This document shows positions 3,473 to 63,738 of a stretch of DNA of 64,000 bases, one piece after another. Within the stretch, counting starts at the first letter, position 1. Each line of letters starts with the position of its first letter. Source of the DNA: Owenia fusiformis (taxonomy: Eukaryota > Annelida > Polychaeta > Sabellida > Oweniidae); assembly GCA_903813345.2 (NCBI GenBank), contig CAIIXF020000002.1, forward strand, positions 14,466,150 to 14,530,149, written 5' to 3'. Position numbers and translations under genes: made by a program. Under the pieces are notes generated by a model. That model had not been told where the DNA came from. It worked only from the letters and a program-made list of their open reading frames with translations, and did not search any database.

Positions 3473-3924
3473 TTAATGTTGCGAATGCAATTCTAAGTGA
3501 GCTTTCTTGTTATTTCTTAGTATCCTCATGCCACATATGAGACACTGCAGGTCCCTAGCTAGGTGCATAGCAACACCAGGTTTGCCAGTGAATAACTTGT
3601 AGCAGTGCACACAGTGGTTTGGTTTCTCTCCTATATGTTCCCTGCCATGAGCTTTACACTCCTGCTCAGTCAGCTCATCCACTCTACTGTTACAAATGCT
3701 GCAGTATTTGTTGTGGACTAACATTGTGTGATGTTCTACACAACGGTTGCTAGGAAACAACTCCTCACACACATTACATTGGTGCTTCTCTACAACATCT
3801 ATGAATGTCTTCTGTTTATGGTGCAGCAATCTAGCTCCAGTTACGACAATATCTGATCCAGTTTGGAAAATATCTGCTTCAGTTTGGGAAACCTCTGCTC
3901 TAATGTATTGTTGGTTGCTTTTGT
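3473..3924 (-). CDS. Alternative terminal exon with four-finger zinc cassette (minus locus, distal)
   Basis: Terminal coding exon of the minus-strand locus. The acceptor is TCTATCTTCAG then AC, in phase 1, so the first codon completes as GAC from the G that ends exon 2. It adds about 149 residues and ends at a TAA. A leader of about 45 residues is followed by finger 1 (CNVC, x12, H, x4, H), finger 2 (CSIC, x14, H, x3, H), finger 3 (CVHC, x12, H, then D where the last His should be) and finger 4 (CLIC, x11, H, x3, H). The likely role is sequence-specific DNA binding in the nucleus, inferred from the C2H2 family. It closely resembles the exon at 6326-6771 and shares that exon's acceptor sequence, so the two are tandem duplicates. 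No ATG or promoter makes it a separate gene. Confidence 0.85.
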
Positions 3925-4223
3925 CTGAAGATAGAAATGAGTTTGTACATCAAATGTAGCTGTCTCATTCAGGAGTTTCAATTCACAACCACGTGCTGCT
4001 AGAGTATGATATGCAGGAAACAATGTTGATTTGGATGAATTATGTTTTCTGTGAAGGCTAAAAAACTGTCTTCATCAATATTTACATACAAGAAAGTCAA
4101 TTCATCTTAATTTAAAAACTTATTCCATTAGGTACATAAGATGCATTTTTTATGAAATAATGGTTAACACAGAAATCCAAAATTCAATGAGCTAAAAAGC
4201 AAAATTTTCTGTTTTACAAATTC

Positions 4224-4694
4224 ATCTGCATATTTCGATGTTATCAATGTCGCAAAAGATTTTCATATTTTTACGTGCTGTAGATTTCAATGTCTTTGTA
4301 TACCTTAGTTTTAATGATGGAATTGTTTTTAATTTTTTATTAAAAAATATTGAGTCGATTTCATGATTTGTACAACATGTATTGCATAATTCTGTTAGAC
4401 ACGATTTAAAAATTTATTGTTTTTCAATATTTTTAATAAGCATACATTATTCAATTGATTTTTTCATGTGATAATTTTTTTACATCTGTGCATCATAATT
4501 ATGCAAAACATGTTGTTCAAAAGTTTGTACCAATCATGAAAACGATGTAGGGGGTTTGCTAATATTTTATATGAAATAATAAAAAATATTAGCATCATTA
4601 AAACTAAAGTATACTATAAGGACATTAAAATCTGCAATACGTAAAAATATGAACATATTTGGCGACATTGATAATATTGAAATATGCAGATGAA
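4224..4694. mobile_element. Hairpin MITE with long inverted arms
   Basis: The arms at about 4224-4316 and 4590-4694 are inverted copies, each with TTCATCTGCATATTTC at the outer end and a shared TTCATATTTTTACGT block. The centre is AT-rich and partly self-complementary. No coding capacity was seen. Confidence 0.75.
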
Positions 4695-4929
4695 TTTGGT
4701 TCTCCAAGCCAAAAATCATTCTTTAATTTTTTAACATTTTTGAATGACTTTACATGAGGGCCTTAGACAGAAAATAATGTTCCTGGAATTTCTTTGTTAG
4801 GTTACTGTTTCCAGCATTGAACTCTGTCACTTTATCTACCCCTAAAAATCATGATGATGTCATTATAAATGTTTGTTGAAATTAAAGGGTTCCGTTTTCA
4901 CCAGTTTATCAGATCAAAACAAGGACATA

Positions 4930-5215
4930 TTTTGAATATTGTCATATAGTAACAGTGGTTCACATACTATATAGCGCTGTGCTTGAATTATTGCCACTTC
5001 AGATTTGAAATGATTTTGAAAAACATTGGTCAGTTTGAGGCAAGTTGAAAAAATACCTTTTTGACCTTTTTTCACAATATTGTAATGAAAAGGTCCTTGA
5101 AGGTCAAATTTCAAACTGCTGAGAACTTGGACATTGGAAGAATTTGTTACAGACGCCAACCATCAACCACCAACCACAGTCACAAAAATGGAGACTATAA
5201 CAATATGTCCACACT
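4930..5215 (-). repeat. Dispersed repeat, also present at 26175-26500
   Basis: Reversed, this stretch matches the intron sequence just after plus-strand exon 1. Shared blocks include TCTCCATTTTTGTGAC, GTCTGTAACAAATTCTT or its variant, and a TTTGACCTTCAA block. The two copies lie inside the minus and plus loci. Family unknown. Confidence 0.6.
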
Positions 5216-6325: not shown

Positions 6326-6771
6326 CTAACAGTTGCTATGCAAGTGCAGATGTTGTCTCCTATTGCTTCTAATTATTTGTTGTCCACATATTAGACACTT
6401 CAAGTCTTTGGCCAGGTGCATCCCAACACTAGTTCTCCCATTGAACAACTTAAAGCAATATGTACAGTGATGAGGCTTTTTGCCAATATGTGCCTCAACA
6501 TGACTCTGTAGCTCAGCCTCATGTAGGTTATCTAGCCTCATGTTACACTCACTACAGTACTTATTATGTACAGTCATAGTGTGGTACTCAACGCAGCGAT
6601 TCGTTGGGAAGTGTTTGCTACATATAGTACAAGGAGTCTCTTCTTTAACATCTATGAAACTTCTTCCTCTAGGATCCTGTGTGAGGGGGAGTTCCCCAGA
6701 AAGGGGGGATTCCACAAGTATGAATTCATCAGTCTGTCCATAGTTTGTGAAGTGGTGTTTATTACTTGGGT
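6326..6771 (-). CDS. Alternative terminal exon with four-finger zinc cassette (minus locus, proximal)
   Basis: The first terminal exon downstream of minus exon 2. The acceptor TCTATCTTCAG then AC is phase 1 and adds about 147 residues. The leader has an acidic and Pro-rich stretch (TDEFILVESPLSGELPLT) and then RSFIDVKEE just before the fingers. Finger 1 is CTIC, x12, H, x4, H. Finger 2 is CSEC, x13-14, H, x3, H. Finger 3 is CTYC, x12, H and then D. Finger 4 is CLIC, x11, H, x3, H. The frame stays open upstream of the acceptor with an ATG at 6928, but the acceptor, phase and match to the other seven exons argue for a spliced exon. It is the probable parent or sister of the exon at 3473-3924. 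DNA binding is inferred from the family. Confidence 0.87.
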
Positions 6772-6849
6772 CTGAAGATAGAAAGTACCCAATGTCAGCC
6801 TGTTGAACATATTTAACAGTGTTATCTGCTAAACTGTTGAATGTATTAT

Positions 6850-8344: not shown

Positions 8345-9757
8345 AGTGAACTCTATTTAGGGAAATGTTCACTCTAAATCCTACATTTCATTTGATCCTA
8401 AGAATCCTCATCAAATTAATAATATTGTGAACTCGAGTCTCCAGAATATTGAGCTTTGGTCGAAAACATGGGGCTTACAGTTTAAGCCTGAAAAAAGTTG
8501 TGAAATCATTTTTCATGGATCCAAAATGAAACTAGACAATGTTAGTTCATCTACTCTAAATAATATGGAAATTGAGAGAGTCAATGTGCACAAACATCTT
8601 GGTTATACTTTTGACCCTTTTCTAACTCATAGACAGCATATAAATGATATTTTTGACAAAATTAGTAAAATGCTTGGTCCATTAAAGGCACTCAAAAATA
8701 TGATGACTTCTAAACACATTGAAACTATTTTTAATTCTTTCATTCGTCCACATTTTGAATATGGAACTGTCCTTTACAATACAGCTCCTAAAGTACCTCC
8801 TTCAAAGACTAGACAGATTATACTATCAAGCTGCACTATCTTGCTCTGGCTGTCTCCATGGAAGTAGTTTCGAAAAGGTGCTTTCTTTACTTCAGTGGCC
8901 CACTCTGGAAACCCGGCGAAAAATTCAAATAAATAATCAAATGTTCAAAATAGTTAATGGCCCTGTTCCAATATACATTGATGAAATTTTTGAAAAATTC
9001 CGTAACCCTAGGGGTCGTGATCTTCGTGAACACCGTGAATTCAGATTACCTGTCTGATGCTCAGAAACCTATCGTAAATCAGCAGTTCCAGCTGCTATTT
9101 CTAGCTGGCTTAGCCTTCCAAATAAGATCAAACTTTGTAAAACTCTTCAAACCTTCAAACATAAACAAAAGTTATTTTTTTCGGATCAACCTCAAACTAT
9201 AACTACAAGCCAACTCAACATCTCAAGAAGTCATGAAATTATCATTAATCGACTTAGAGCTGATCTCCTGTTAAAAGCCCAGTTATATGCTCACAACTTT
9301 AATTTTATTGATACTCCTAATTGTACATGTGGACTTCCCCAAACCTTGAAACATGTTTTCTTTCACTGCCTACTATTAACTGTAGAGAGAGAAAAGTTAT
9401 TTAAAGATATCAATGAAATAGCACAAATTGAACATAGAAATCAAAATTATTACTTGAACTTATTTAAGCATGGAAGTCTTGACATCTCCTTAGATAAAAA
9501 TTCACTTATTTTGACAACTGTTGCAACTTTTCTTCACACCAACAACTTGGCTCTCAAAACCTAACGAGTACCGGCCCGGCTTCCAGACCTGATATCACCC
9601 AAGACCCAGGAAACTTATGTGCCTGACCAGCACACATTTGCTATTGTATTACATTATTTGTGCTTATTTGATCCTCTATAATGCTGAAAGGCGATCGAGG
9701 AGTTCTTGTGTAAAATATTTTACTGATATAAATAAATAAAGTAATGAATAAAAAAAA
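8345..9757 (+). mobile_element. LINE fragment, 3' end of a reverse transcriptase ORF, frameshifted
   Basis: The stretch 8360-8836 encodes the thumb part of a non-LTR reverse transcriptase, with IELWSKTWGLQFKPEK, then HLGYTFDPFLTHRQHI and FNSFIRPHFEYGTVLYN. The protein continues in another frame to about 9050, then in a third to 9564, which ends with a CTCG...H...C cluster (TPNCTCGLPQTLKHVFFHC). The catalytic YADD region is missing at the 5' side, so the copy is 5' truncated and carries at least two frameshifts. The 3' end is A-rich (AATAAAAAAAAA near 9746). The style is CR1/Jockey-like, but the clade is uncertain. It lies inside the intron between minus exon 2 and the first terminal exon. Confidence 0.85.
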
Positions 9758-13873: not shown

Positions 13874-14041
13874 CTTGTTGCACAATTGCACCATTATCTT
13901 CCCCCATGTATGTCTGGTCAGTTGGCGTTGTCATGTCTTCTTCTATTAAAATGGGCTCCTCAGTTTTGATTATTTTGTTGGCAACTGAAGTTGTATCAAG
14001 CTCTGGTGGCTTACGTTTTTTTGCACTACCACTGGGGACAC
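13874..14041 (-). CDS. Shared exon 2 of the minus locus, basic NLS exon
   Basis: An internal exon of exactly 168 bp. The acceptor is CTTAAATAG then GTGTCC and the donor is CAACAAG then GTGAG. Both borders are phase 1. It encodes about 56 residues starting VPSGSAKKRKPPELDTT, where KKRK is a probable nuclear localisation signal. It continues with NKIIKTEEP (a psi-K-x-E SUMO consensus) and an acidic IEEDM stretch. The first 85 bp or so are almost identical to plus exon 2 (29941-30108), after which the two diverge. Because both borders have the same phase, skipping this exon would keep the frame. It links exon 1 to whichever terminal exon is chosen. Confidence 0.9.
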
Positions 14042-14714: not shown

Positions 14715-15266
14715 CATATGAACTTTCAGGTTCAAAGCCATAACCAGTGTTACTATCCCCAGAGCCTACAGAACCAGACAGTGTCTGGCTGTCCAAATAA
14801 GGAGGCTCTGGTTTAATATTGATGCTGGTCTGTGGCATGCTATCAGGTATTGCATATTGTTCTAGTTGAGGTTGGTTGTCTAAACGACGTTTGGAATGTG
14901 GAGGATCATGTCTCGGTGATGGTTGCTGGGGGCTCCCTCTAATCTGTGATGATCGATTACGGGACCTCTGGGACTGAGTATGTGTAGCCTGTGGGCTTCC
15001 TGTGTATACATCAGACCCAGTGATATCTGCCCATTGTGCTTGAACTGGCTCTTCTGGCTTCATGATGGTACGATGCATCTTGATGACAATCTCCGGGACC
15101 ATCTCTCCAGGACTGACACATATGATGCCATCTATTTCCAGCTGGGTGTCGAAGGTGATGTGTTGAGTGCAGAGTTTCAGAACGGCATCTTGTACAAGCT
15201 GAGTCAGCAAGGTCTTACTGTTTGCTTTCATTTGAGCCATTCTATTGGTAAATATTAAACCTTCCC
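14715..15266 (-). CDS. Shared exon 1 of the minus locus, N-terminal domain and linker
   Basis: The acceptor is TTTCAG then GGGAAGG and the donor is ATATG then GTAAGG, phase 1. Coding probably begins at the ATG at 15240, which has good context (AGAATGG), giving 175 residues. The frame is open upstream, but upstream phase differs from the plus copy, so the 5' part is taken as untranslated. Residues of about 10-60 form an unrecognised conserved block: a probable helix (LLTQLVQDAVLKLCTQH), then two probable strands (DTQLEIDGIICVS and EIVIKMHRTI). A Ser/Pro/Gln/Arg-rich linker follows with KRRL and then NIKPEPPY (IKPE, a SUMO consensus). Function is not known. By analogy with lola-type loci the domain may mediate dimer or co-factor contacts. 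It is not a visible BTB, and its sequence is nearly identical to the plus copy in the middle. Confidence 0.85.
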
Positions 15267-17375: not shown

Positions 17376-17449
17376 TACCCCATGTGGGAATCAAACCTAG
17401 GACCCTCGGATCCAAAGCCTGATGCCCTACCGACTGAGCTATAAAGGCT
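17376..17449 (-). pseudogene. tRNA-like sequence, degenerate, possibly a SINE head
   Basis: On the minus strand TAGCTCAGTCGGTAGGGC matches the A box and GGTTTGATTCC matches the B box of RNA polymerase III promoters. The loop in between would carry TTG in the anticodon position. The acceptor and T stems pair poorly, so a working tRNA is unlikely. It is a tRNA pseudogene or the 5' part of a tRNA-derived SINE. No clear SINE body or tail was delimited. Confidence 0.6.
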
Positions 17450-20790: not shown

Positions 20791-20825
20791 GAATCAGATA
20801 ATTGCAGATTTGAAGTGTGCAATCA

Positions 20826-20888: not shown

Positions 20889-22267
20889 TGCAATCTGCAA
20901 CCAATGATAGCCAGATCTATATAGAGTGCACTTTGGGCTCTTATTTGTTAAAATTGGTCACAATGTAGCTAATTATTATTAGCAACAATAGAAGTTGGTT
21001 GCATTGACCTCAGGACTATGGTTGCAGCTTACACGGATCCTTGCAAATTTTGCAAAAGATCTTACCGAGTATAGAGGCTAAAACATGTAAAGAGCTGCTT
21101 TGCTTTGTTGTTCCTGATCTAAGTTGTGGCGTGTCATGGAGGCTAACACAACAGTTTATTTAAGTATTTTCGATGAACATTTTCATCAATATAAAAGTCC
21201 TATAATCTATATCATGATATGATTAAATCAAAATAGGCTTAACAATTACACAATCATAGAATCAGACGTACACATTTTCTGTTGATAATATTTTTGACAT
21301 AGACATTGAAAAGGTCATAATTGTGGTGTGTTATCATAATTGAATTGAACCGCCACGTGTGAAGACAATCAAGGCATTATTGCTGAGCGTTATCATCTAT
21401 ACTCAGTAAGTATGCAATTTACAACAGAATTGACTGGTATTTTCTTCTTTCTTTACGATTATCCATTCTCAAAATTCATTTCCTGCGTACATTCACTCGA
21501 TCTATCTCTTCAGGGTTCTCACCAGGAAATTTTTAGACCCCGGATTTTTGGGTTTGTAGGGAATACAGTTGTGAAAGAAATGATGGTCCCCCATTACTGA
21601 ACACAGCTGGCTCAAAAGCCAGCTGACAGACCGTTCAAATATACTGTCTTGTGAAGTGTTTTACTCCAACTTCCAGCAGGCGCGCTGGAATAAGTTAACG
21701 GTATTAAGAAGATAATTGAATTTAACTTGCCCTTTTCTTGATGCGTGGTGACAATAAGTCCTACTTGTTGTGTAATTTGCAATTAAATAGAGAAATTCCA
21801 GATCTGGCGCGCACCATTTTTTAATTTTTGCGCATGCGGGCACATGCGCATTATACTTTACAGGCGCATGGGCATCGCCGCTAAAGGATCACGTGACTAT
21901 ACATATTTAGCTAACGCGAGTTATTTTGTAGCAAATCTTAACTTTCGAAAGTCAAGAGATCTCGCGAGACCTAAAATGGCTGCAATCCAAATTCAAAAGT
22001 TTTGTTAACTGATAGAACATTGATTTAATACAACAACAGACTGTTGAAGGATCAAAATAAGGTAACAACAAATAAATTATGTATTGATTCAAATATATAG
22101 TGTGTTATAAACGCTACTCAGCACAGCGTTTATTCAAAATGGGCTCGATTTTTCCTCTTCAAGAATTTTCAATCCAACTTCCCAGAGCTGACTTCTGTCA
22201 GCTCTGTAGAGTAAGTCCCCCAGGGATTGTGGTCCCCTTTCTAAACGGCCCTTACTGGCCCTGATTG
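20889..22267. other. Non-coding stretch
   Basis: A CAGCTGGCT...AGCCAGCTGACAG palindrome lies near 21606. A bases-CATGCG-rich segment occurs at 21780-21880. No gene recognised. Confidence 0.35.
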
Positions 22268-25584: not shown

Positions 25585-26102
25585 TCATTTAACAATGGGA
25601 TCAAACAACAAGGCTCTGTTAACACAGGTTGTACAAGATGCCGTCCTAAAACTCTGCACTCAACACATCACCTTCGACACCCAGCTGGAAATAGATGGCA
25701 TCATATGTGTCAGTCCTGGAAAGATGGTTCCGGAGATTGTCATCAAGATGCATCGTACCATCATGAAGCCAGAAGAGCCAGTTCAAGCACAATGGGCAGA
25801 TATCACTGGGTCTGATGTATACACAGGAAGCCCACAGGCTACACATACTCAGTCCCAAAGGTCCCGTAATCGATCATCACAAATTAGAGGGAGCCCCCAG
25901 CAACCATCACCGAGACATGATCCTCCACATTCCAAACGTCGTTTAGACAACCAACCTCAACTAGAACAATATGCAGTGCCTGATAGCATGCCACAGACTG
26001 GTATGAACATAAAATCTGAGCCAACATATCTGGACAGTCAGACACCATCTGGTTCTGTAGGCTCTGGTGACAGTAACACTGGAGATGGAGCAATAGTATA
26101 CG
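25585..26102 (+). CDS. Shared exon 1 of the plus locus, N-terminal domain and linker
   Basis: The acceptor is GTATTTTATAG then TCATTT and the donor is ATACG then GTGAGT, phase 1. Coding probably starts at the ATG at 25595 (context ACAATGG), giving 169 residues. Residues of about 6-55 form the same unrecognised helix-strand-strand block as the minus copy (ALLTQVVQDAVLKLC, DTQLEIDGIICVS, EIVIKMHRTI). A Ser/Pro/Gln/Arg-rich linker follows with KRRL and NIKSEPTY (IKSE, a SUMO consensus), then a Gly/Ser end. Between 25730 and 25975 it differs from the minus copy at only two bases, both silent, while its two ends are clearly diverged. It is the shared N-terminus for the plus-strand zinc cassettes. 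Biochemical role unknown. Confidence 0.87.
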
Positions 26103-29940: not shown

Positions 29941-30108
29941 GTGTCCCCAGTGGTAGTGCAAAAAAGCGTAAGCCACCAGAGCTTGATACAACTTCAGTTG
30001 CCAACAAAATAATCAAGACTGAGGACCCAATTTTGATAGAAGAAGACATGACAACAGCAACTGACCAGGCATACATGGGAGGAAATAACAGTGCAATGGC
30101 AGAACAAG
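29941..30108 (+). CDS. Shared exon 2 of the plus locus, basic NLS exon
   Basis: An internal exon of 168 bp, the same length as in the minus locus. The acceptor is TTTAATGTAG then GTGTCC and the donor is GAACAAG then GTGAGA. Both borders are phase 1. It encodes VPSGSAKKRKPPELDTT with a KKRK nuclear localisation patch, then NKIIKTEDP (SUMO consensus IKTE), the acidic IEEDM and a Met/Asn-rich end. The first 85 bp are nearly identical to 13874-14041. Skipping it would keep the frame between exon 1 and any terminal exon. Confidence 0.92.
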
Positions 30109-36745: not shown

Positions 36746-36752
36746 ACATGTT

Positions 36753-38188: not shown

Positions 38189-38610
38189 GGGGCTACACAT
38201 ATCAGGATCCAGTCAGATTTGATGTTCATAGCATGTCAGGTGAAGCTTCCAATAAAATGAAATATCAAACTTCTGGAAATGTCATTGAGCTTGAAGTTGA
38301 ATATAATTGTGACCAATGTACAAGGATATTTCCTGGGAAACGTTGCCTTGACTACCACATGTTGATATCACACAACAAATTCTGTGATATATGTTCAAGT
38401 CGGATTGATCATGAGTCTGATCTTGATATGCATGGTCTGAAACATAAGGATGAAAAACCATACCAGTGTGATGTTTGCTATAAACTGTTCAATGCTGAAA
38501 GTGGGCTGAGGACCCACAGGGCAAAAGACTTGCAGTGTGTCTTATGTGGCAAGCGCTTGCTGAGGAATGAAAGAAAACGTCATATGTCTACAGTTCACCC
38601 AGGCATCTAG
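38189..38610 (+). CDS. Alternative terminal exon with four-finger zinc cassette, plus 1
   Basis: The acceptor TTTTCTAG then GGGGCT is phase 1, and the first codon completes as GGG. It adds about 139 residues. The leader is short (about 35 residues) with YQDPVRFDVHS and then VIELEVEYN. Finger 1 is CDQC, x12, H, x4, H. Finger 2 is CDIC, x12, H, x3, H. A DEKPYQ linker precedes finger 3 (CDVC, x12, H, then D), and finger 4 is CVLC, x11, H, x4, H. This is the shortest leader of the set. The nearest shared exon is 8.1 kb upstream. It is likely spliced to exon 2 or exon 1 of the plus locus, giving a nuclear protein of about 365 residues. Confidence 0.9.
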
Positions 38611-40538: not shown

Positions 40539-41014
40539 GTTGTACACTAATCCCACGTACTGGAAATCCAGATGATTACAGTGACATATGTGGACGTGGC
40601 TTTCCAATTCAGCAACTGATTCCTCCTGTAGCCAGTATTAGACAAACAAATGAGCAACAGAGATATCCTGAACCCATAGAAATCCAGAAAGATTACAAAT
40701 GCCCAAAATGCCACAGGGTGTTTCCAAGTTCTCGATGTGTGGATCATCATGTGATCGTTTTCCATAATAAATTTTGTGATGTCTGCAAAGTCCGTATTGA
40801 TCATGAACCTGACCCACAGGAGCACTATAAGCGCCACCTATCTTCTAAACCATTTAGTTGCAGTGAATGTTACAAATTGTTCAATAATGAGATCAGTCTA
40901 AAGGGCCACATTAGTAATGACTTTATCTGTCAAATATGTGGCAAACAAATGAGAAGAGATAAAAGAAACAAACATATGAGAGCACATATAGAAGGAAACC
41001 CCTTTAGAGATTGA
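40539..41014 (+). CDS. Alternative terminal exon with four-finger zinc cassette, plus 2
   Basis: The acceptor TTTTATCTCAG then GTTGTA is phase 1. It adds about 157 residues. The leader of about 55 residues contains RYPEPIEIQKDYK, a version of the PEPVEV motif seen before the fingers in the exons at 52374 and 58420. Finger 1 is CPKC, x12, H, x4, H. Finger 2 is CDVC, x12, H, x3, H. Finger 3 is CSEC, x12, H, then N-D so that D takes the His place. Finger 4 is CQIC, x11, H, x3, H, with a very basic GKQMRRDKRNKHMRAH. An ATTAAA lies about 165 bp after the stop and could direct polyadenylation. DNA binding is inferred. Confidence 0.9.
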
Positions 41015-41599: not shown

Positions 41600-42431
41600 A
41601 TCAAGGAGGATTGGCTCCCAGAATGCAACACCGATATTCTGCAAAACAATCACCTACCCTTAAGAAAAAACCCATGGTCTCCATGATTTGTCATGGTATT
41701 TACCAGTTTTCCATGGTAAATACCGGTTTTTCATGGTAAATACCAGCCTGTCATGGTAAAAAATCATGAACTTTTCCATGGTCATTACCGGTATTTCATG
41801 ATAAAAAAAACATGGAATTTTCTATGGTATTTACCATGAAATACTGGTTTTCCTTGATATTTGAAAATGAATTATTCCCATCAAGTGTGTCAAGGGTAAT
41901 GTGTAATATTGATGTATTGGTATTTAAAGTTGTAAACATATAACGAGTTTTCAATATTTTCTCAATATTTGAAGATCAATAAAATGAAGAACACAACACA
42001 GATGATAAATGACTTGAAAGAAATGAAGGTAAATATGCATTATTATTTAAAGAGAGAATCAGATAAAGGTAGCAGGCAAAACAAAAATTGTTTCAATTCC
42101 AATAAATCTTAAGTTCATTCTTTTGCAGCTTACATGTCAATTTTCTGAAGTGCATGCATGTACTTTATTTCAAGAAAAACTTTTCAAATTTTGCAATGAC
42201 CACAGTTTTAATAGCAGAGTTTAGCATAGCATTTTCAGGTAAATGAAGGTTAATAATCTTCATGGTATTTCCCATTGCGTTCCGGAAACACTTCGTTCGG
42301 TGGGATAATTATATATGGCAATTGTGTAAAATTGAAATAATTTTTGATATAACTTCACTTTATATGATTTCTTTTTTTCTTAAAAACAAAATTGCTAAAA
42401 AACATTAAAACACAAAACCATTGAATTCTGA

Positions 42432-42849
42432 TTCAAACATGACCGTGCTCTAATTGAATTTCTCAACCAATCAGAATGCAGCTTAGCCAATATAGAACGT
42501 TCTCTAATTCTCCATAGATGCACGACCGTGCTCTATCCAATCATCCGGGAATCTACGTATTGTATTTGCATTGTGACGTCACACCTGGGAATGGCGAAAA
42601 TAACAGCGAGCTCGAGTTTGGTGTATCTCATGTAGCTCCAATCCCCAATTCTCTGAACAATGTTTTCATTTTTTATATGTTTGAATCGGAATAAATAATG
42701 ATAGGCCATTCAATATGGTGAAATTCAGCACTCGTTGGACAGAATGTCAGTACAAATGCACTCACCTTCGGTTCGTGCTTTGTACGACATTCTGTCCAAC
42801 TCGTGCTGAATTTCACCATATTGAATGGCCTATCATTATTTATTCCTTA
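42432..42849. mobile_element. Repeat insert ending in a large hairpin, inside the first foldback unit
   Basis: It interrupts a foldback unit between GAATTCTGATT and TTACAATTTCC. The first 290 bp match 60857-61135. The end (42697-42846) is a hairpin with arms of about 70 bp: GATAGGCCATTCAATATGGT, then GTTGGACAGAATGTC, and their inverses. Confidence 0.75.
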
Positions 42850-44164
42850 ATTACAATTTCCAAAATCATGGAACTTGATCGCATTTTTCCCAAAATCATG
42901 GAACTTGATTACAAAATTCCAAAAATCATGCATTTTAATCATAAATACTATGAGATGTAGATGTTGGCATAAAAGAACATGTTATCAATCTCCATAATCA
43001 ATGGTCTAAGAACTTATACAAATATAAAATTGAAAATTGTAGGAAGTTAAAATATCAAAGAATATTTAATCTAATTTACCAGTCAATGGTTTAAATACTT
43101 ATACAAACTAAGTTAAGGTATGGCAATTGTGTAAAATTGAAATAATTTTTGAGATAACTTCACTTTATATGATTTTCTTTTTTCTTAAAAACAAAATTGC
43201 TTCAAAACATTAAAACACAAAACCATGGAATTTTGATTACGATTTCCAAAATCATGGAACTTGATTGCGTTTTTCCAAAAATCATGGAATTTGATTACAA
43301 AATTCCAAAAATCATGGAGTTCGATTGCACCATTCTGAAAAATATTTGTTTAAGAAATGTAAACAGGCTCATGATTTCTGAAAACTGCATGGGTGTATAT
43401 TTTGGTGAGGATACAAGGCTTTTCATCATTTTTTTTATAAAATATTGTCGACTCCATCCATGTGTGCAGTAAATTGTCTATAAATACTATGAAATGTTGA
43501 TATTGGCATAAAAGAACATGTTATCAATCTCCATAATCAATGGTCTAAGAACTTATACAAATATAAAATTGAAAATTGTAGGAAGTTAAAATATCAAAGA
43601 ATAAAATACTTAAACAAACTAAGTCAAGATATGGCAATTGTGTTAAATTGAAATAATTTCGAGATAACTTCTCTTTATATGATTTTCTTTTTTCTTAAAA
43701 CATAATTGCTACAAAACATAAAAAGACAAAACCATGGAATTCTGATTACAATTTCCCAAAAAATCATGGAACTTGATTGCATTTTTCCCAAAATCATGGA
43801 ACTTGATTACAAAATTCCAAAAATCATGGAGTTCGATTGCACTATTCTGAAAAATATTTGTTTAAGAAATGTAAACAGGCTCATGATTTCTGAAAACTGC
43901 ATGGGTGTATATTTTGGTGAGGATACAAGGCTTTTTATCATTTTTTTTGTAAAATATTGTCTACTCCATCCATGTGTGCAGTAAATTGTCTATAAATACT
44001 ATGAAATGTTGATGTTGGCATAAAATAACATGTTATTAATCTCCATAATCAATGGTCTAAGAACTTATACCAAATATAAAATTGAAAATTGTAGGAAGTG
44101 AAAATATGAAAGAATATTTAATCTAATTTATCAGTCATGGTTTAAATACTTAAACAAACTAATA

Positions 44165-44515
44165 TTTTGAATTGTTGATGTTATAATATCAAAGACAAAA
44201 TTACGACCTAAAACTTTTATTCTAGCATCTCCTCCCAGGTTCCAAATTATACTACAGGGTTTTTCAATTGAGTGTTTTTCTGACCAAGCCACATTGCTTT
44301 TGTTTCCTGTGTTCAGGCATGGGCTTTCAACTATAATCAATGATCTAAGAACTTTTATTCTAGCGTCTCCTCCCAGCTTCCAAATTATACTACAGGGTTT
44401 TTCAATTGAGTGTTTTTTCTGACCAAGCCACATTGCTTGTGTTTTCTTCATGTTCAGTTTAAGGCCAGTTGTTAGATAAAACCTATTTGCTTCATTTAAA
44501 ATGTTTTTAAGATAT
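44165..44515 (-). mobile_element. Captured LINE reverse transcriptase fragment, partly duplicated
   Basis: On the minus strand TGLKLNMKKTQAMWLGQK is the motif that follows the catalytic site in non-LTR reverse transcriptases. The segment with SIEKPCSIIW and LGGDARIKVL occurs twice in tandem here and once more at 46600-46730, so it was copied along with the array. It is a fragment only. Confidence 0.75.
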
Positions 44516-47500
44516 GGCAATTGTGTAAAATTGAAATAATTTTTGATATAACTTCACTTTATATGATTTTCTTTTTTCTTAAAAACAAAATTGCTACAAA
44601 ACATTAAAACACAAAACCATGGAATTCTGATTACAATTTCCAAAATCATGGAACTTGATTGCAATTTCCCAAAACCATGGAACTTGATTACAAAATTCCA
44701 AAAATCATGGAGTTCGATTGCACTATTCTGAAAAATATTTGTTTAAGAAATGTAAACAGGCTCATGATTTCAGAAAACTGCATGAGTGTATATTTTGGTG
44801 ATGATACAAGGCTTTGCATAATATTTAAAAAAATATTGTCTACTCCATCCATGTATGCAGTAAATTGTCTATAAATACTATGAAATGTTAATATTGGCAT
44901 AAAAGAACATATTATCAATCTCTATAATCAATGGTCTAAGAACTTATACAAATATAAAATTGAAAATTGTAGGAAGTTAAAGTAAGAAAGAATATTTAAT
45001 CTAATTTACCAGTCAATGGTTCAAATACTTATACACACTAAGTTTATGTATGGCAATTGTGTAAAATTGAAATAATTTTTGAGATAACTTCACTTTATAT
45101 GATTTTCTTATTTCTTAACAAAATTGCTACAAAACATTAAAACAAAAACCATGGAATTCTGATTACAATTTCCAAAATCATGGAACTTGATTGCGTTTTT
45201 CCCAAAATCATGGAACTTGATTACAAAATTCCCAAAATCATGGAGTTCGATTGCACTATTCTGAAAAATATTTGTTTAAGAAATGTAAACAGGCTCATTA
45301 TTTCTGAAAACTGCATGAGTGTATATTTTGGTGAGGATACAAGGCTTTTCATCATATTTTTATAAAATATTGTCTACTCCATCCATGTATGCAGTAAATT
45401 GTCTATAAATATTATGAAATGTTGATATTGGCATAAAAGAACATGTTATTAATCTCCATAATCAATGGTCTAAGAACTTATACAAATATAAAATTGAAAA
45501 TTGTAGGAAGTTAAAATATCAAAGAATATTTAATCTAATTTACCAGTCAATGGTTTAAATACTTATACAAACTAAATTAAGGTATGGCAATTGTGTAAAA
45601 TTAAAATAATTTTTGAGTTAACTTCACTTTATATGATTTTCTTTTTTCTTAAAAACAAAATTGCTACAAAACATTAAAACACAAAACCATGGAATTCTGA
45701 TTACAATTTCCCAAAAAATCATGGAACTTGATTGCATATTTTCAAAAATCATGGAACTTGATTACAAAATTCCAAAAAATCATGGAGTTCGATTGCGCTA
45801 TTCTGAAAAATATTTGCTTAAGAAATGTAAACAGGCTCATGATTTCTGAAAACTGCATGGGTGTATATTTTGGTGAGGATACAAGGCTTTTCATCATTTT
45901 TATAAAATATTGTCTACTCCATCCATGTGTGCAGTAAATTGACAATGAATACTATGAAATGTTGATAATGGCATAAAAGAACATGTTATCAATCTCAAGT
46001 TGTTAGATAAAACCTATTTGCTTCATTTAAAATGAATTTAAGATATGGAATTTGTGTAAAATTGAAATAATTTCTGATATAAACTCATTTTATATGATTT
46101 TCTTTTTTCTTAAAAACAAAATTGCTACAAAACATCAGGGGCATTCAACTAGATGCCCATGAAAACATTAAAACACAAAACCATGGAATTCTGATTACAA
46201 TTTCCAAAATCATGGAACTTGATTGCATTTTTCCAAAATCATGGAACTTGATTACAAAATTCCAAAAATCATGGAGTTTGATTGCACTATTCTGAAAAAT
46301 ATTTGTTTAAGAAATGTAAACAGGCTCATGATTTCTGAAAACTGCATGGGTGTATATTATGGTGATGATATAAGGCTTTTCATAATTGTTTTTAAAATAT
46401 TGTCTTCTCCATCCATGTGTGCAATAAATTGTCTATAAATACTATGAAATGTTGATATTGGCATAAAAGAACATGTTATCAATCTCCATAATCAATGGTC
46501 TAAGAACTTATACAAATATAAAATTGAAAATTGTAGGAAGTTAAAATATCAAAGAATAATTAATCTAATTTAGCAGTCAATGGTTTAAATACTTAAACAA
46601 ATTAAGTTTTTGAATTGTTGAAGTTATAATATCAAAGACAAAATTACTACCTAAAACTTTTATTCTAGCATCTCCTTCCAGCTTCTAAATTATACTACAG
46701 GGTTTTCAATTGAGTGTTTTTTCTGACCAATTTTCAATTTTATATTTGTATAAGTTCTTAGACCATTGATTATGGAGATTAATAACATGTTATTTTATAT
46801 CAACATTTCATAGTATTTAAAGACAATTTACTGAACACATGGTTGGAGTAGACAATATTTTCTAAAAAAATGATGAAAAGCCTTGTATCCTCACCAAATA
46901 TACACCCAAGCAGTTTTCAGAAATCATGAGCCTGTTTACATTTCTTAAACAAATATTTTTCAGAATAGTGCAATCGAACTCCATGATTTTTGGATTTTGT
47001 AATCAAGTTCCATGATTTTGGGAAAAATGCAATCAAGTTCCATGATTTGGGAAATTGTAATCAGAATTCCATGGTTTTGTGTTTTAATGTTTTGTAGCAA
47101 TTATGTTTTAAGAAAAAAGAAAATCATATAAAGAGAAGTTATCTCGAAAATTATTTCAATTTTACACAATTGCCATATCTTGACTTAGTTTGTTGAAGTA
47201 TTTTTTTTATTTTTTGATATTTTAACTTCCTACAACTTTCAATTTTATATTTGTATAAGTTCTTAGACCATTGATTATGGAGATTGATAACATGTTCTTT
47301 TATGCCAATGTCAACATTTCATAGTATTTATAGACAATTTACTGCACACATGGATGGAGTCGACAATATTTTATAAAAAATGATGAAAAGCCTTGTATCC
47401 TCACCAAAATATACACTCATGCAGTTTTCAGAAATCATGAGCCTGTTTACATTTCTTAAACAAATATTTTTCAGAATAGTGCAATCGAACTCCATGATTT

Positions 47501-49171
47501 TTGGAATTTTGTAATCAAGTTCCATGATTTTGGGAAAAACGCAATCAAGTTCCATGATTTTGGAAATTGTAATCAAAATTCCATGGTTTTGTGTTTTAAT
47601 GTTTTGTAGCAATTTTGTTTTTAAGAAAAAAGAAAATCATATAAAGTGAAGTTATCTTAAAAATTATTTCAATTTTACACAATTGCCATACCTTAACTTA
47701 GTTTGTATAAGTATTTAAACCATTGACTGGTAAATTAGATAAATATTCTTTGATATTTTAACTTCCTACACTTTTCAATTTTATATTTGTATTAGTTCTT
47801 AGACCATTGATTATGGAGATTGATAACATGTTCTTTTATCCCAATATCAACATTTCATAGTATTTATAGACAATTTACTGCATACATGGATGGAGTAGAC
47901 AATATTTTATAAAAAATTATTAAAAGCCTTGTATCCTCACCAAAATGTACACTCATGTAGTTTTCAGAAATCATGAGCCTGTTTACATTTCTTAAACAAA
48001 TATTTTTCAGAATAGTGCAATCAAACTCCATGATTTTGGGAATTTTGTAATCAAGTTCCATGATTTTGGGAAAAGCGCAATCAAGTTCCATAATTTTGGA
48101 AATTGTAATCAGAACTCCATGGTTTTGTGTTTTAATGTTTTGTAGCAATTTTGTTTTTAAGAAAAAAGAAAATCATATAAAGTGAAGTTATCTCAAAAAT
48201 TATTTCAATTTTACACAATTGCCATACCTTAACTTAGTGTGTATAAGTATTTAAACCATTGACTGGTAAATTAGATTAAATATTCTTTGATATTTTAACT
48301 TCCTACAATTTTCAATTTTATATTTGTATAAGTTCTTAGACCATTGATTATGGAGATTGATAACATGTTCTTTTATGCCAACATCTACATCTCATAGTAT
48401 TTATGATTAAAATGCATGATTTTTGGAATTTTGTAATCAAGTTCCATGATTTTGGGAAAAATGAGATCAAGTTCCATGATTTTGGAAATTGTAATCAGAA
48501 TTCAAGATTTTGTGTTTTAATGTTTTCACCTTCAGAAAATTGACATGTAAGCTGCAAAAGAATGAACCTAAGATTTATTGAAATTGAAACAATTTTTGTT
48601 TTGCCTGCTCCCTTTACCTGATTCTCTCTTAAATAATAATGCATACTTAAGTATTTACCTTCATTTCTTTCAAGTCATTTATCATCTGTGTTGTGTTCTT
48701 TATTTTATTGATCTTCAAATATTGAGAAAATATTGAAAACTTGTTATATGTTTGCAACTTTAAATACCAATACATCAATATTACACATTACCCTTGACAC
48801 ACTTGGTGGGAATAATTCATTTTCAAATATCAAGGAAAACCAGTATTTCATGGTAAATACCATAGAAAATTCCATGTTTTTTTATCATGAAATACCGGTA
48901 ATGACCATGGAAAAGTTCATGATTTTTTACCATGAAAGGCCGGTATTTACCATGAATAACCGGTATTTACCATGGAAAACCGGTAATTACCATGACAAAT
49001 CATGGAGACCATGGGTTTTTTCTTAAGGGTAGCGATAGCTTTGTTGGAGAGTATCGGGTCATTCTCCATGCAGTCGTACAAATTATACAGACACGAATAG
49101 CAAATGACGCATGCGTGGAGATTAAAGAATATCGAGTTGGAACCCTGGCTTCCAATCCTCCTTGATAGAAA

Positions 49172-50642: not shown

Positions 50643-51094
50643 GAATGAAGGAAGCAGAGCTTTGGAGGGAGTCATACCACACAAACCCCCAGGAACAAGT
50701 ACAATTACCTAACCCAGATCATCAGGAGAATTATCAACAGCAGAGGTTGCCAGGTAGAACACGACGGGGAGACTTTATGGTAGACCTGGTGAAGGATTAC
50801 CATTGTGACCAATGTGGGAAAATCTTCCCTACAAGTCGATGTGTGGACTATCACAAGATGTTGGTGCATAACAGGTTCTGTGATGTTTGTAATATCAGGC
50901 TAGACCAGGAGGACCCAGAACTACACTGCATGGGTCATATGGAGCGCAAGAAGTTTGAGTGCAAGGCATGTATGAAACAGTTCAATGTTGAGGGAAGCCT
51001 GTGGAGTCACACTGCTATAGACCTGCTGTGTCAGATATGTGGCAAAGTAGTGACAAGGAACCGCAAGAGGAAACACATGAGTCTGCACCAGTAA
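50643..51094 (+). CDS. Alternative terminal exon with four-finger zinc cassette, plus 3
   Basis: The acceptor TTCCACATGCAG then GAATGAAG is phase 1, and the first codon completes as GGA, followed at once by Met. It adds about 149 residues. The leader is Gln/Pro-rich (NPQEQVQLPNPDHQENYQQQ) and then RTRRGDFMVDLVKDYH. Finger 1 is CDQC, x12, H, x4, H. Finger 2 is CDVC, x11, H, x3, H, one residue shorter than most. Finger 3 is CKAC, x12, H, then D. Finger 4 is CQIC, x11, H, x3, H. The finger 1-2 linker is HNRFC where most exons have HNKFC. The leader ATG is in good position but is most likely an internal Met. An ATTAAA lies about 250 bp after the stop. Confidence 0.9.
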
Positions 51095-52373: not shown

Positions 52374-52828
52374 GAATGTGGGGTGATACACATGGCAACA
52401 GTGGACTTTCAGGCAGTTATGATGACAACCAAAGTTATATGAAAATGCCATCCAAGGGACAACTCAGAATTTATAGATCAACTCGAGATATTCCAGAACC
52501 AGTTGAAGTGGATCGAGATATCAATTGTGAAAAATGTGGAATAACATTTCCAAGTATCCGTTGCCTCGATAACCATAATATGATTGTTCACAACAAATTC
52601 TGTGATGTTTGTTCTAAGCGTCTCGATGATGAAAGTGTAGAAAACCTGTTGCAGCATGGCAAGATGCACACTGGCATGAAACCATTTCAATGTGAATACT
52701 GCTACAAGTTGATCAACACAAAAGCAGGCCTCAAATTCCACCAAGACAAGAACCTGAGGTGTTTGATATGTTCACAGGAGTTCATGAAGACACACAAGTC
52801 AAACCATATGAAAACACACCTAATATGA
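52374..52828 (+). CDS. Alternative terminal exon with four-finger zinc cassette, plus 4
   Basis: The acceptor TTTTTTTAACCACAG then GAATGTGG is phase 1, with Met as second residue as in plus 3. It adds about 150 residues. The leader is Gly/Ser/Asn-rich, then DIPEPVEVDRDIN before the fingers. Finger 1 is CEKC, x12, H, x4, H. Finger 2 is CDVC, x14, H, x3, H. The linker TGMKPFQ precedes finger 3 (CEYC, x12, H, then N). Finger 4 is CLIC, x11, H, x3, H. The shared VHNKFCDVC spacer is kept. It lies 1.3 kb after plus 3. Transcription-factor C-terminus inferred. Confidence 0.9.
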
Positions 52829-58419: not shown

Positions 58420-58856
58420 GTGCTTGGGCTAGTAACTATGGGAACCATGATAGCACTGTTGCTGACATTTCAACTGTGGGCCCATCTCAAAAATCACCAT
58501 ATGGTTATCCTGAGCCTGTAGAAGTAGAAGATACATACACATGTGAATTATGTGTGACACAGTTCCCCACTATACGGTGCGTTGAATACCATAAACAACT
58601 TGTCCACAACAAGTTTTGTGATGTTTGTAACACTCGACTAGATCAGGAATCTGATGCAGCTATCTTGGAACATGGATTAACTCATAAGCACACCAAATCA
58701 CACCAATGTTCACACTGTTTCAAGTTGTTTAATTCTGCAGCAGGATTAAAAGTACACCTGGGCAATGACCTGAGGTGCTTAATGTGTGGACACCAGTTCT
58801 TGAGGAGTGGTAAAACTTCCCACATGAGACAATGTAAGAAGCAGCACCCAATATAA
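58420..58856 (+). CDS. Alternative terminal exon with four-finger zinc cassette, plus 5
   Basis: The acceptor TTGTACCTTCAG then GTGCTT is phase 1. It adds about 144 residues. The leader is Ser/Asn/Gly-rich, then YGYPEPVEVEDTYT. Finger 1 is CELC, x12, H, x4, H. Finger 2 is CDVC, x14, H, x3, H. The finger 2-3 linker is KHTKSHQ. Finger 3 is CSHC, x12, H, then D after GN. Finger 4 is CLMC, x11, H, x3, C, so the last ligand is a cysteine (HMRQC), and a basic tail KKQHPI follows. AATAAA overlaps the stop codon, too near to be the only polyadenylation signal. The 35-bp minisatellite starts about 315 bp downstream. Confidence 0.9.
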
Positions 58857-59170
58857 TAAAACCCAAAGACCCTTACTGGTATTAGAACATAATAGTTGGA
58901 TTTACAACCCAATATGTACACTTGTATGGTAACACATGTTTGGGGCTCATGGCGATGTTTAAATATCTCACACATAGATTCTAAAGTGACATTTGTACAT
59001 CATGTGGAGTTGAATACACATATTTATATAGGGAAATACAAATCCTATACCTTCTGCTTAGTAACATACACAATTATCCAATTTTTGAGTAATCTTGCTA
59101 TTAAACACCTAATACATTGAACTCATAATGACATATAGACATACAATATAAGGGATTTATTCTATAAAAG

Positions 59171-60645
59171 CATATCAACACCTAATGCAAGAGGCTTCAT
59201 AGTGGCATTGAAACACCTAATGCAAGAGGCTTCATAGTGGTAAGAAGTACCCAATGCAAGAGGCTTCATATTGGCATAGAAACACCCAATGCAAGAGGCT
59301 TCATATTGGCATATAAACGCCCAATGCAAGAGGCTTCATAGTGGCATAGAAACACCCAATGCAAGAGGCTTCATAGTGGCATAGAAACACCCAATGCAAG
59401 AGGCTTCATAGTGACATATTAAAACCCAATGTAAGAGGTTTCATAGTGGCATAAAAAACAATGCAAGAGGCTTCAAAGTGACATATAAACACCTAATGCA
59501 AGAGGTTTTGTAGTGGCATATGAACACTGAATGCAAGAGGCTTCATAGTGGCATTGAAACACTCAATGCAAGAGGCTTCATAGTGGCATATAAACACCCA
59601 ATGCAAGAGGCTTCATAGTGACATATTAACACCCAATGCAAGAGGCTTCATAGTAGCATATAAACACCCAATAAAAGTGGCTTGGTAGTGGCATATAAAC
59701 AAGCAATGCAAGAGGCTTCATAGTGGCATAGAAACACCCATGCAAGAAGTTTCATAGTGGCATATAAACACCCAATGCAAGAGGCTTCATAGTGACATAT
59801 AAACACCCAGTGCAAGAGGCTTCATAGTGACATATAAATAACCAATACAAGAGGCTTCATAGTGGCATATAAACACCCAACGCAAGAGGCTTCATAGTTG
59901 CATATGAACACCCAATGCAAGAGGCTTCATAGTGACATATAAACACCCAATGCAAGTGGCTTGGTAGTGGTATTTAAACACCCAATGCAAGAGGCTTCAT
60001 AGTGGCATTGAAACACTCAATGCAAGGGGCTTCATAGTGGCATTGAAACATTCGATGCAAGGGGCTTCATAGTGGCATAGAAACTCCAATGCAAGTGGCT
60101 AGGTAGTGGCATAGAAACACCCAATGCAAGAGGCTTCATAGTGGCATAGAAACACCCAATGCAAGAGGCTTCATAGTGGCATATAAACACCCAATGCAAG
60201 AGGCTTCATAGTGGCATTGAAACACTCAATGCAAGGGGCTTCATAGTGGCATATAAACACCCAATGCAAGAGGCTTCATAGTGACATATTAAAACCCAAT
60301 GTAAGAGGCTTCATAGTGGCATAAAAAACAATGCAAGAGGCTTCAAAGTGACATATAAACACCTAATGCAAGAGGCTTTGTAGTGGCATATGAACACTGA
60401 ATGCAAGAGGCTTCATAGTGGCATTGAAACACTCAATGCAAGAGGCTTCATAGTGGCATATAAACACCCAATGCAAGAGGCTTCATAGTGACATATTAAA
60501 GCCCAATGCAAGAGGCTTCATAGTGGCATAAAAACAATGCAAGAGGCTTCAAAGTGACATATAAACACCTAATGCAAGAGGCTTTGTAGTGGCATATGAA
60601 CACTGAATGCAAGAGGCTTCATAATGGCATTTAAACATAGTTGTC
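59171..60645. repeat. 35-bp minisatellite, about 42 copies, with higher-order structure
   Basis: The core is CAATGCAAGAGGCTTCATAG followed by a TGGCATATAAACACC-type spacer. Variants (TGACATATT, TTGGTAGTGG, CTAATGC) recur in the same order. A block starting with the AAACCCAATGTAAGAGG variant is at about 59422 and again about 870 bp later. The short AAAACAATGCAAGAGG variant occurs near 59456, 60326 and 60532. It lies after plus 5 and may be transcribed in its 3' UTR or the following intron. Confidence 0.92.
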
Positions 60646-60856: not shown

Positions 60857-61135
60857 TTCAAATATGACCGTGCTCTAATTGAATTTCTCAACCAATCAGA
60901 ATGTAGTACTGCCAATAAAGAATGTTCTCTATTTCTCAATACATGCATGACCATGATCTATTCAATCATCCAGGGATCTATATATTGTGACATCACACCT
61001 ATGAATGACAATAATAACAGCAAGTTTGGTTATTTTATGGACATCAATCCCTCATTCTCTGAGCAATGTTTTCATTTTAATGTTTGAATCGGAATAAATA
61101 ATTATAAGCCCTTCAATTTGGTGAAATTTTTCGGA
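60857..61135. repeat. Dispersed repeat matching 42437-42725
   Basis: Shares GACCGTGCTCTAATTGAATT, TCTCAACCAATCAGAATG and TGTTTGAATCGGAATAAATA. This copy lacks the terminal hairpin present at 42697-42846. Confidence 0.75.
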
Positions 61136-62555
61136 GGATGTTTCATCAAACCTTTTGTATAGATTATTTATTTAGTATTTTTTCAATCCTTGCATATATA
61201 TTGATATGCATTGTCTTTGAGGCCAATATTCTTCAAAATCGTTGTTCTTCGTATTCTCAAGATATATTAAGGTTTAATATGTGTGTTTGAGTTGGTCAAT
61301 TTTCCCAATTACAATATTCAAAACTATACAGATATTTAATTCCAATAATATTTATTAGAATAGAATTAAACATTGTCCTATTATTCACTGTTTTATTCCT
61401 CACCACATTAATGGAATAACAAACTATTGATGTCTAATTAATCATAACAATGTACTCCCGGGCATGATGACTATTAAAATTACACTGGACTATGTCGTGA
61501 CTGGTAAATATATAGAGGATATCCTATGATTTATGAATCACATGATATTTGCACGACCGAGCGTATCACGAGTAAATCATAGGATGTTCTTTTTATTCCA
61601 TAGTTAAAGTCATCATCAGAATCGTCAGAAATTAGGTGATTTAAATCGAATTTTCCAAATATTGACACTTAGCCTCGTTTTGAGTCTGTAGTAGCAAAAA
61701 ATCCATAATTTATAGCATACGGCGCCGTATGTCATGGCTAAAACACCATATGCTATGTTTAAGTGAAAACTTGATAAAAATATCATATTTTACCACTGAT
61801 TACAAAAATAATATTTTTATTTTGACATGTTATTCTATGAATATAATGCTAACTATGGAATAACATTTGATATTCAACATAAATCAAGTGACTTCCGTTG
61901 AATATTGCTTGTTATTTTTAGTTGTGTGTAAGACATGAACCAATCAGAGAGTGAGGAATATGACAGTGAAATAAAAGAGGATATCCGACCCATTCTCTGA
62001 ATATGAAGCAGTTTATGTTAGTAGAAGTTCTATTAATGAAACATGATTACTAATGTACTGTAGCTATATACTACAGTGATTTATTGTTAAAGGTCAACTA
62101 TTCTAAGACTACACATGTTTTTTTATATACTGTACATGTACATGTTTTCATATACATGTGTATACACTATAATGAATTATTAACATCACATAAACTTTTT
62201 CACGATCATGTTCTGCATGTAATGACATTTAATTTATATTGCCTTACAGTTAATATGTTCTTTTAGACAAAGAAACCTAACTTTATAGACATTCATTTAA
62301 AAAGCTGACAAAGAACATCTTGAAAATAAATAGGCTAATGTAGTCTAGAGATAGTTAAAATTTATTAGTTAACGCTGCAGCATGTGCCCTGTGTGTGTCT
62401 AGTGGATTGTTTTATATTGTAATTTGTAAAATACATGAAATAAATTGAACTAAATGTGAATGTAAAAAAAAGTTAATCGAGTGTCATTCCATAAAGGACA
62501 TGTACCAAAAATGTAAAATATCATCCCTTATTGCATTGCATTGTTGATGTACTAC
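61136..62555. other. Stretch with a weak inverted pair
   Basis: AATCATAGGAT and ATCCTATGATTT occur around 61520-61585, and ATAGAGGATATCCTATGA also appears, reversed, near 31190. No gene recognised. Confidence 0.35.
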
Positions 62556-62760
62556 AGTGCGTACCAAAAAAATGCAACAATCAAAATATGTGATGATTAC
62601 ATCAATTTAGTTGAATTAACCATGAAGCCACGTGTCTCCCCTTTTCAATGGTATATCATTTGTTCATATCTGATGATGGATTATTGAATAATCATTGTTT
62701 TTTCATGCATGGGTGAAAAGGCCTTTGTGCCAAGTTTTGAAATATCCTCAGTAACTGAAC
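62556..62760. mobile_element. Left-half fragment of the 31.2-kb mariner-like family
   Basis: CAGTGCGTACCAAAAAAATG and following blocks (GTGATGATTACATCAATTTA, GAAGCCACGTGTCTCC, AATGGTATATCATT) match the ends of the element at 31212-32203. No right end was found. Confidence 0.65.
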
Positions 62761-63223
62761 AACAAGTCAAGTCAAGTAACAAGTAACAAGTCAACTGATC
62801 CTATTGTGCAATCAGGTATTAAATCATCATGTAATTGGGACTGGGGATTAAATTCTGGTCATATAACACAAGTTTCATATTTATATCTACTAAGAAAAAA
62901 GATTTAATTTTAAGTGTTCATCAATATCCTTGATGGTTCAGTTTGACAAAAAGGAAGTGGCATAAACAGTGAAGTCATTTCAATAAGTCACAATCATTGC
63001 CTGTCATCTTATGAAAGATTGCTGTAAAAGGGACTAAATTTTGAGATATTTTAGCATCTAACTGATTTCCTCCAAGAATTTTGTGTGTTACAGAATGTTA
63101 AGCAACTAAGTAAAAATAGTTTTAATTGCTATTTTATTATTAGGAATTACTGTTCATGATATCAACATACAGCTTCAGAAAAAAACTATTCTTTGCATAT
63201 AATGTTAGACATTATATTTGCAG

Positions 63224-63738
63224 TGCTGTTCAGTGAGTCCATACATGGCTCCAGTCATTCAGTGCAACTGGACCAAGGACATGCTACAATTAGAGATTCT
63301 ACCAAGCAACCTGCTGATGAATATGGAACAATTTATGTCAACTTCAACGTACCATATGGAGACAATTCTGGGGTAGATGCTAGATCATTAAATGAGTTAC
63401 CCCAGCCAGAAGAAATGGAAGGTGATGTGCTATGTGAGTTGTGCCACTTGACTTTGCCCACAAAGAAATGTTTAGAATATCATACAGCTTTGGTGCATAA
63501 TAAATTCTGTGATGTATGCAGGGAAAGGATTGATGATGACCCAGACCCTGGTAACCATGGCAGGAAGCACATTGGGTGCAAACCTATACACTGTGACCAC
63601 TGTTTCAAGGGCTTCCAGACTGAAAGTGGCCTCAAATTGCATCTAAGTAAACCACTGATGTGCAAGATCTGTTTTAAAACATTCAAGAGCAATTATAAAA
63701 GCCAACATATGAAGAGTCACACGTTGGGAGAGAAGTGA
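63224..63738 (+). CDS. Alternative terminal exon with four-finger zinc cassette, plus 6
   Basis: Two in-phase acceptors are possible: ATATTTGCAG then TGCTGT (used here) and CAGTCATTCAG then TGCAAC at 63263. The exon adds about 170 residues, the longest leader (about 73 residues), ending LPQPEEMEGDVL. Finger 1 is CELC, x12, H, x4, H. Its usual FPx[N/S/T]RC is changed to LPTKKC, losing the core Phe. Finger 2 is CDVC, x12, H, x3, H. The linker IGCKPIH precedes finger 3 (CDHC, x12, H, then P). Finger 4 is CKIC, x11, H, x3, H. It is the most diverged member of the set and the last in the window. Confidence 0.88.

Follow-up and report, generated by a model that had tools for sequence, protein, structure and literature searches.

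To our knowledge, factors of the kind encoded by lola and mod(mdg4) are known from insects, where they rest on a BTB domain. Drosophila lola is described as producing at least 20 isoforms, three of which have no finger (PMC5127561), and 17 of the 20 carry different C2H2 zinc-finger ends behind a shared TTK-type BTB domain (PMC11426971). For its part, mod(mdg4) is reported to have constant front exons, over 30 isoforms with alternative 3' exons, exons on both strands and trans-splicing from independent promoters (PMC12692577), the ends being mostly of the FLYWCH type (PMC11426971). Here we analyse a window of 64,000 nucleotides (the whole stretch of DNA presented, C2:14466150-14530149) from the annelid Owenia fusiformis, read together with 100 kb of added flank on each side (264 kb, no N inside). 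The window lies on contig C2, which is 35,751,742 bases (35.75 Mb) long, and holds two loci, A and B, in each of which a shared front appears to be joined to interchangeable zinc-finger cassettes. The best reading of this arrangement is a lola-like system of alternative terminal zinc-finger exons that has expanded independently of BTB. Among the matches listed for the terms used, the literature searched held no description of this Owenia family, and the main text of the genome paper contains "zinc finger" 0 times (PMC9977687).

Like lola, the Owenia loci combine a common N-terminal part with many alternative C2H2 ends, and like mod(mdg4) they combine constant front exons with alternative 3' exons. 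The front of lola is a BTB domain, whereas the Owenia loci have a small, unrelated front domain that matches nothing in Pfam; the Owenia system also differs from lola in its roughly 44 N-terminal places on one contig, in multi-finger cassettes that are homologous to one another, and in the divergent pairing of its loci. Because BTB was tested for and not found, the system works like lola without being a member of that type. An original prediction, made from the sequence of the window alone, had likened the loci to both Drosophila genes. The likeness to lola holds; mod(mdg4), with its mostly FLYWCH ends and its trans-splicing from independent promoters, is the poorer analogue of a system that has C2H2 ends and, in the 264 kb read, one strand per locus.

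A and B are two divergent, head-to-head paralogous loci of an annelid zinc-finger family. Their shared exons form inverted pairs, one between the two first exons (495 nucleotides, 92%; 14738-15232 versus 25594-26088) and one between the two second exons (177 nucleotides, 90%). A haplotype artefact is ruled out by introns that do not align (39-45% in a forced alignment of 400-base flanks, with short repeat-like matches only elsewhere) and by the differing cassettes. Within exon 1, 4 of 109 codons in the middle differ between A and B, three of them silently, as against 31 of 60 codons at the ends, and the longest unchanged run spans 42 of the 169 codons (permutation P 0.0006). The near identity of the middle, silent sites included, may reflect gene conversion confined to coding sequence, or else an unusual constraint on silent sites. 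Exon-confined gene conversion would keep the shared front common to A and B.

The joining of this front to different ends can be followed in annotated gene models, the source of all joins reported here (protein searches admitted matches of 0.55-1.75 times the query length). A search with a predicted B isoform returned 22 proteins, 18 of them from O. fusiformis on C2. The end of protein P0001 is exactly the predicted isoform composed of A exon 1, A exon 2 and cassette A_C1 (381 residues), the nearer A_C2 being skipped; the 204 residues of P0002 are identical to the last part of the isoform predicted for B with B_C5, B_C1 to B_C4 being skipped. Each of the two joins exons of its own locus only. 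At the locus next to A and B, P0003 and P0008 share 262 identical residues and then run into different cassettes about 11.5 kb apart. Two further pairs behave alike: P0026 and P0027 have 235 residues in common before different C2H2 ends, that of P0027 lying 7.9 kb downstream of a same-strand N-terminal exon, and P0028 and P0029 have 253 residues in common before different ends. According to the genome paper, RNA sequencing, Portcullis junctions, Trinity and Augustus were merged with PASA to build the Owenia models (PMC9977687), and because of this pipeline the annotated joins are probably read-supported. P0001, P0002 and the pair P0003/P0008 back the predicted lola-like design with a non-BTB shared domain. 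We consider it highly probable that at A and B one front is joined to interchangeable finger ends through the exon-2 donor.

With the flanks included, each locus has seven cassettes, and all 14 joins of shared exons to cassette are in frame with one terminal stop. The seven cassettes of each locus are on the strand of that locus and downstream of its shared exons, and two N-terminal exons alone serve the 14. Related cassettes follow the same order in A and B, pairing A_C4 with B_C2/B_C3 (83), A_C5 with B_C5 (77) and A_C6 with B_C7 (80). Both pairs of shared exons and the eight terminal exons of the window are found where the original prediction had placed them, judged by a six-frame listing and splice edges, and the own stop that it gave each cassette is borne out in 8 of 8 window joins. 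The flank search that it proposed yielded six more cassettes of the window type (five for A, one for B), all with in-frame joins. Its uniform phase 1 with an acceptor for each cassette applies to most of them and is less clear at B_C6, where the acceptor at 63224 is weak and ambiguous and the best AG is in phase 2. By a simple score devised for this analysis, 12 of the 14 cassettes have their best AG before the fingers in phase 1 only, and 13 do if one tie is admitted (P 0.0038 and 0.00049, respectively, against a pooled phase-1 share of 0.47). As for the eight isoforms foreseen from a shared front, the design stands, with an annotated join for only two of the eight window cassettes. The cassette profile was built from these eight, which therefore match by construction (expectation value, E, 1.7e-55 to 7.8e-62), and it found no further full cassette in the window, the next match having E 0.001. 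A weak half-cassette inside locus B (39054-39221, minus strand, opposite to the locus; 15.7 bits, E 0.001) is at most a relic.

Table 1. Exons, terminal cassettes and fragments discussed in the text. Positions are relative to the window (negative values precede it) unless prefixed with C2.
Feature	Position	Strand	Basis
Locus A, 5' exon piece in P0001 (MTFSMSMSKILSTENV)	21271..21318	-	exact translation match to P0001
Locus A, second 5' exon piece in P0001 (LHDTPQLRSGTTKQSSSLHVLASILG)	21064..21141	-	exact translation match
A exon 1, from internal ATG: N-terminal domain and linker; donor ATG/GTAAGG, phase 1	14715..15240	-	in P0001
A exon 2: basic stretch, psi-K-x-E motif, hydrophobic-acidic stretch; donor AAG/GTGAGA, phase 1	13874..14041	-	in P0001
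B exon 1, from ATG; donor ACG/GTGAGT, phase 1	25595..26102	+	splice edges
B exon 2; donor AAG/GTGAGA, phase 1	29941..30108	+	in P0002
A_C1 terminal cassette	3473..3924	-	joined to A exon 2 in P0001
A_C2 terminal cassette, acceptor ttctatcttcag (tie with phase-0 AG)	6326..6771	-	
A_C3 to A_C7, beyond the window	starts at -325, -1472, -2542, -5196, -9187	-	
B_C1 terminal cassette	38189..38610	+	
B_C2 terminal cassette	40539..41014	+	
B_C3 terminal cassette	50643..51094	+	
B_C4 terminal cassette	52374..52828	+	
B_C5 terminal cassette	58420..58856	+	joined to B exon 2 in P0002
B_C6 terminal cassette; weak acceptor, other phase-1 AGs at 63173 and 63209	63224..63738	+	
B_C7, beyond the window	68176-68609	+	
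Third N-terminal exon	-39819 to -40289	-	
Exon 2 of third locus	-40472 to -40783	-	
Fragment with 11 four-finger cassettes (+), inside the 35374765(-) locus	C2:35348609-35373608		
Fragment with 7 two-finger cassettes (+)	C2:32258109-32283108		

The shared part (231 residues) consists of a domain of about 60 residues, a long linker, a basic stretch and a psi-K-x-E motif beside a hydrophobic-acidic stretch. It matches 0 Pfam families at E<=1, and hence no BTB, KRAB, ZAD or SCAN domain, and its N-terminal domain has no solved relative at E<=1; the structure is predicted, at low confidence (predicted local distance difference test, pLDDT, 60), as a single helix with a hairpin. The 30 proteins that a database search by profile returned are all from Owenia. 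The 31 Owenia proteins collected include 26 different versions of the N-terminal domain; P0002 does not extend into this region. P0018, P0023 and P0024, on other contigs, contain a recognisable relative that is 34% identical to the A copy, which makes it likely that the domain also exists outside Owenia. In many members psi-K-x-E motifs adjoin a stretch such as EEPITIELDDD, a combination that we take to resemble a SUMO site beside a SUMO-interacting motif. One Owenia protein of the 35.75 Mb contig, P0036, has the same N-terminal domain followed by a homeodomain (Pfam E 3.6e-20) in place of zinc fingers; the best solved relatives of this homeodomain are of the engrailed, PDX1, GSX2 and Hox types.

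The cassettes are homologous, as the original prediction held, and its four fingers turn out to be three canonical ones and an imperfect one, finger 3 being without the canonical fourth ligand (H-x3-D/N/P/E). All 15 cassettes compared agree at fourteen zinc-ligand columns, although fourfold sites are saturated (differences at 525 of 756 when non-independent pairs are pooled). Pfam reports a C2H2 family at E<=0.0045 in seven of the eight window cassettes; in A_C1 the ligands are intact, but no C2H2 family is reported at E<=1, and none of the eight matches FLYWCH at E<=1. Sequence and fold matches are largely to DNA-bound C2H2 fingers. The contact sets are distinct in all 15 cassettes, and variability at the contact positions exceeds that of random position sets for fingers 3-4 (P 0.0055; 15 cassettes, four sets tested), with P 0.029 for finger 2 and P 0.99 for finger 1 in the same test. 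From these features we infer that the cassettes would bind DNA and would do so with distinct specificities.

Several observations weigh against the reading of A and B as fronts with interchangeable DNA-binding ends. The other 12 of the 14 A/B cassettes occur in no retrieved protein, P0001 and P0002 could be partly ab initio models, the second of which is only a partial protein, and the last stretch of P0008 is out of frame and has no fingers. Acceptor scores are weak for B_C6 and A_C3, one of six cassettes at the neighbouring locus has no phase-1 AG in its frame, and the poly(A) hexamers that follow every window cassette appear to be about as frequent as AT-rich sequence predicts. The curated Pfam cut-off for C2H2 is passed by only three of the eight window cassettes, and when the contact positions of the four fingers are taken together, they show no significant excess of variability over other positions (P 0.073 for 15 cassettes, 0.11 for eight). 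Lastly, 5 of 77 cassettes of a two-finger type found elsewhere on C2 contain a stop, so some cassettes have apparently decayed.

The fingers could alternatively be protein- or RNA-binding modules, in which case isoforms would differ in their partners and not in their DNA targets. The variability at the contact positions of fingers 2 to 4 and the predominance of DNA-bound fingers among the matches make us regard it as unlikely.

We propose that each locus would produce one pre-mRNA whose exons 1 and 2 encode one shared front. Splicing from the phase-1 donor of exon 2 would then select a single terminal exon out of seven, every one of which has its own finger cassette, its own stop and presumably its own 3' end. 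The terminal exon would be chosen by competition of acceptors and 3' end formation. The resulting isoforms would have a common front, presumably for protein contact and perhaps for SUMO-linked repression, and would differ in DNA-contact residues, mainly those of fingers 2-4. The layout of the exons, their frame and phase, the intactness of the cassettes and the annotated joins at A, at B and at the neighbouring locus are observed. Use of every cassette, splicing in cis and not in trans, one cassette per transcript, DNA binding and repression are the parts of this scheme that we infer; the single-transcript course is most likely, and splicing in cis only is less certain than the joining in general. 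Cassettes could also be transcribed from their own promoters and trans-spliced to the shared exons. The uniform phase would allow this, mod(mdg4) does so (PMC12692577), and for that reason own promoters would not by themselves refute the design. Yet every A/B cassette lies downstream on the same strand, no strong opposite-strand cassette for A or B occurs in the 264 kb (the best is the 15.7-bit fragment), and the exons joined in P0001, and likewise those in P0002, all belong to a single locus; cis-splicing therefore suffices, and we think trans-splicing decidedly improbable. It is very improbable that one cassette per locus is used and the rest are relics or separate homologous genes: A_C1 and B_C5 alone occur in retrieved proteins, in-frame ATGs stand upstream of the acceptor in A_C2 and B_C6 and just after it in B_C3, and stops do interrupt some two-finger cassettes elsewhere, but all 14 A/B frames are open, the 14 ligand columns have been kept although silent sites are saturated, only two N-terminal exons are there to serve 14 cassettes whose relatives keep the same order in A and B, and the neighbouring locus has two annotated cassette isoforms.

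Further along the minus strand at that neighbouring, third locus, the cassette profile gives six weaker matches, each with one or two C2H2 patterns; in five of them a phase-1 AG stands in frame. P0003 joins the third-locus front to the cassette at -51966, and P0008 continues from the same front to -63455 to -63577, skipping two cassettes, and then to -64892 in another frame.

The two loci of the original prediction are an undercount. With all 57 candidates scored, the N-terminal domain has 51 genome matches at E<=1e-3. C2, which makes up 7% of the assembly, carries 45 of these; two of the 45 lie 252 bases apart in one frame, leaving 44 places. Eight neighbouring pairs of N-terminal exons fall within 15 kb, A and B among them, and all eight are divergent (minus, then plus), two of them including a weak match (E 4e-5 and 3e-6 or weaker); this pattern suggests duplication around shared bidirectional promoters. 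Four-finger cassettes of the window type give at least 61 matches at E<=1e-5, all on C2 and none with an internal stop. For 50 of the 61, a same-strand N-terminal exon is found no more than 100 kb upstream; these 50 are spread over six loci, which have 5, 15, 6, 7, 7 and 10 cassettes. Random positions give a mean of 3.9 and a maximum of 12 (2000 draws), and flipping strands gives 16, a count explained by the 11 exceptions, which make up a single inverted block. Two-finger cassettes occupy at least 77 places on C2 (two queries, E<=1e-10, frames under 200 residues), 70 of them downstream of a same-strand N-terminal exon compared with 7 in the strand-flipped control. This count leaves out eight C2 places with longer frames and 12 matches of one two-finger query on other contigs, which lie in long frames (270-944 residues) and look like ordinary zinc-finger genes.

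Altogether C2 carries at least 138 cassettes, 120 of them downstream of a same-strand N-terminal exon, the counts being lower bounds with 150 candidates scored in each of three queries. Across these three queries, cassettes were matched at 20 of the approximately 44 N-terminal places and two or more at 16. The 18 exceptions form two blocks, each inside a fragment that is exactly 25,000 bases long and has N gaps on both sides. Opposite-strand exons in the manner of mod(mdg4) were considered for these blocks of 11 and 7 and set aside, both lying in such fragments; misorientation of both during scaffolding is most likely.

Clustered families of the KRAB, ZAD and FiNZ type are made of separate complete genes, whereas in Owenia one front serves arrays of terminal exons. 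Clustered protocadherins do place arrays of homologous variable exons beside constant exons, but there the variable exons are 5' and have their own promoters, while those of Owenia are 3' terminal. For KRAB/ZAD/FiNZ-type families, lineage-specific expansions are described, with mobile-element targeting proposed for some and not for the fly ZAD genes (PMC10547256). We see about even chances for a broader proposal, namely that C2 houses a very large lola-like system with a non-Pfam domain in place of BTB: some 44 shared-front loci, eight divergent pairs among them, many of which would feed terminal-exon arrays (at least 138 cassettes, two or more at 16 loci, and up to 21 at one if a misoriented fragment is turned). 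Such a system would encode one to several hundred isoforms, might act in a fast-evolving, SUMO-linked surveillance of mobile elements, and would diversify by exon duplication and not by duplication of whole genes.

Other features of the window lie among these exons. Between B_C2 and B_C3 (42300-48600) are repeats with a unit of about 530 bases in direct and inverted copies (594-nucleotide arms, 96%), and between B_C5 and B_C6 (59170-60637) is a minisatellite of about 42 copies of a 35-base unit. Frames at 8361-9564 and 36726-37595 resemble retrotransposon remnants by eye, with no Pfam match at E<=0.01. A marginal tRNA match at 17376-17448 on the minus strand (29.3 bits, E 0.05) is perhaps a tRNA-derived short interspersed element.

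At A and B, the retrieved proteins hold one cassette each against the seven offered by the DNA, and arrays of exons would thus be a route of zinc-finger expansion that gene counts miss. If the proposal is true, these loci provide a system in which to ask how one splice donor picks among up to some twenty terminal exons. An annelid would then have the same exon logic on an unrelated domain and at many loci, and the design would be one that evolves convergently.

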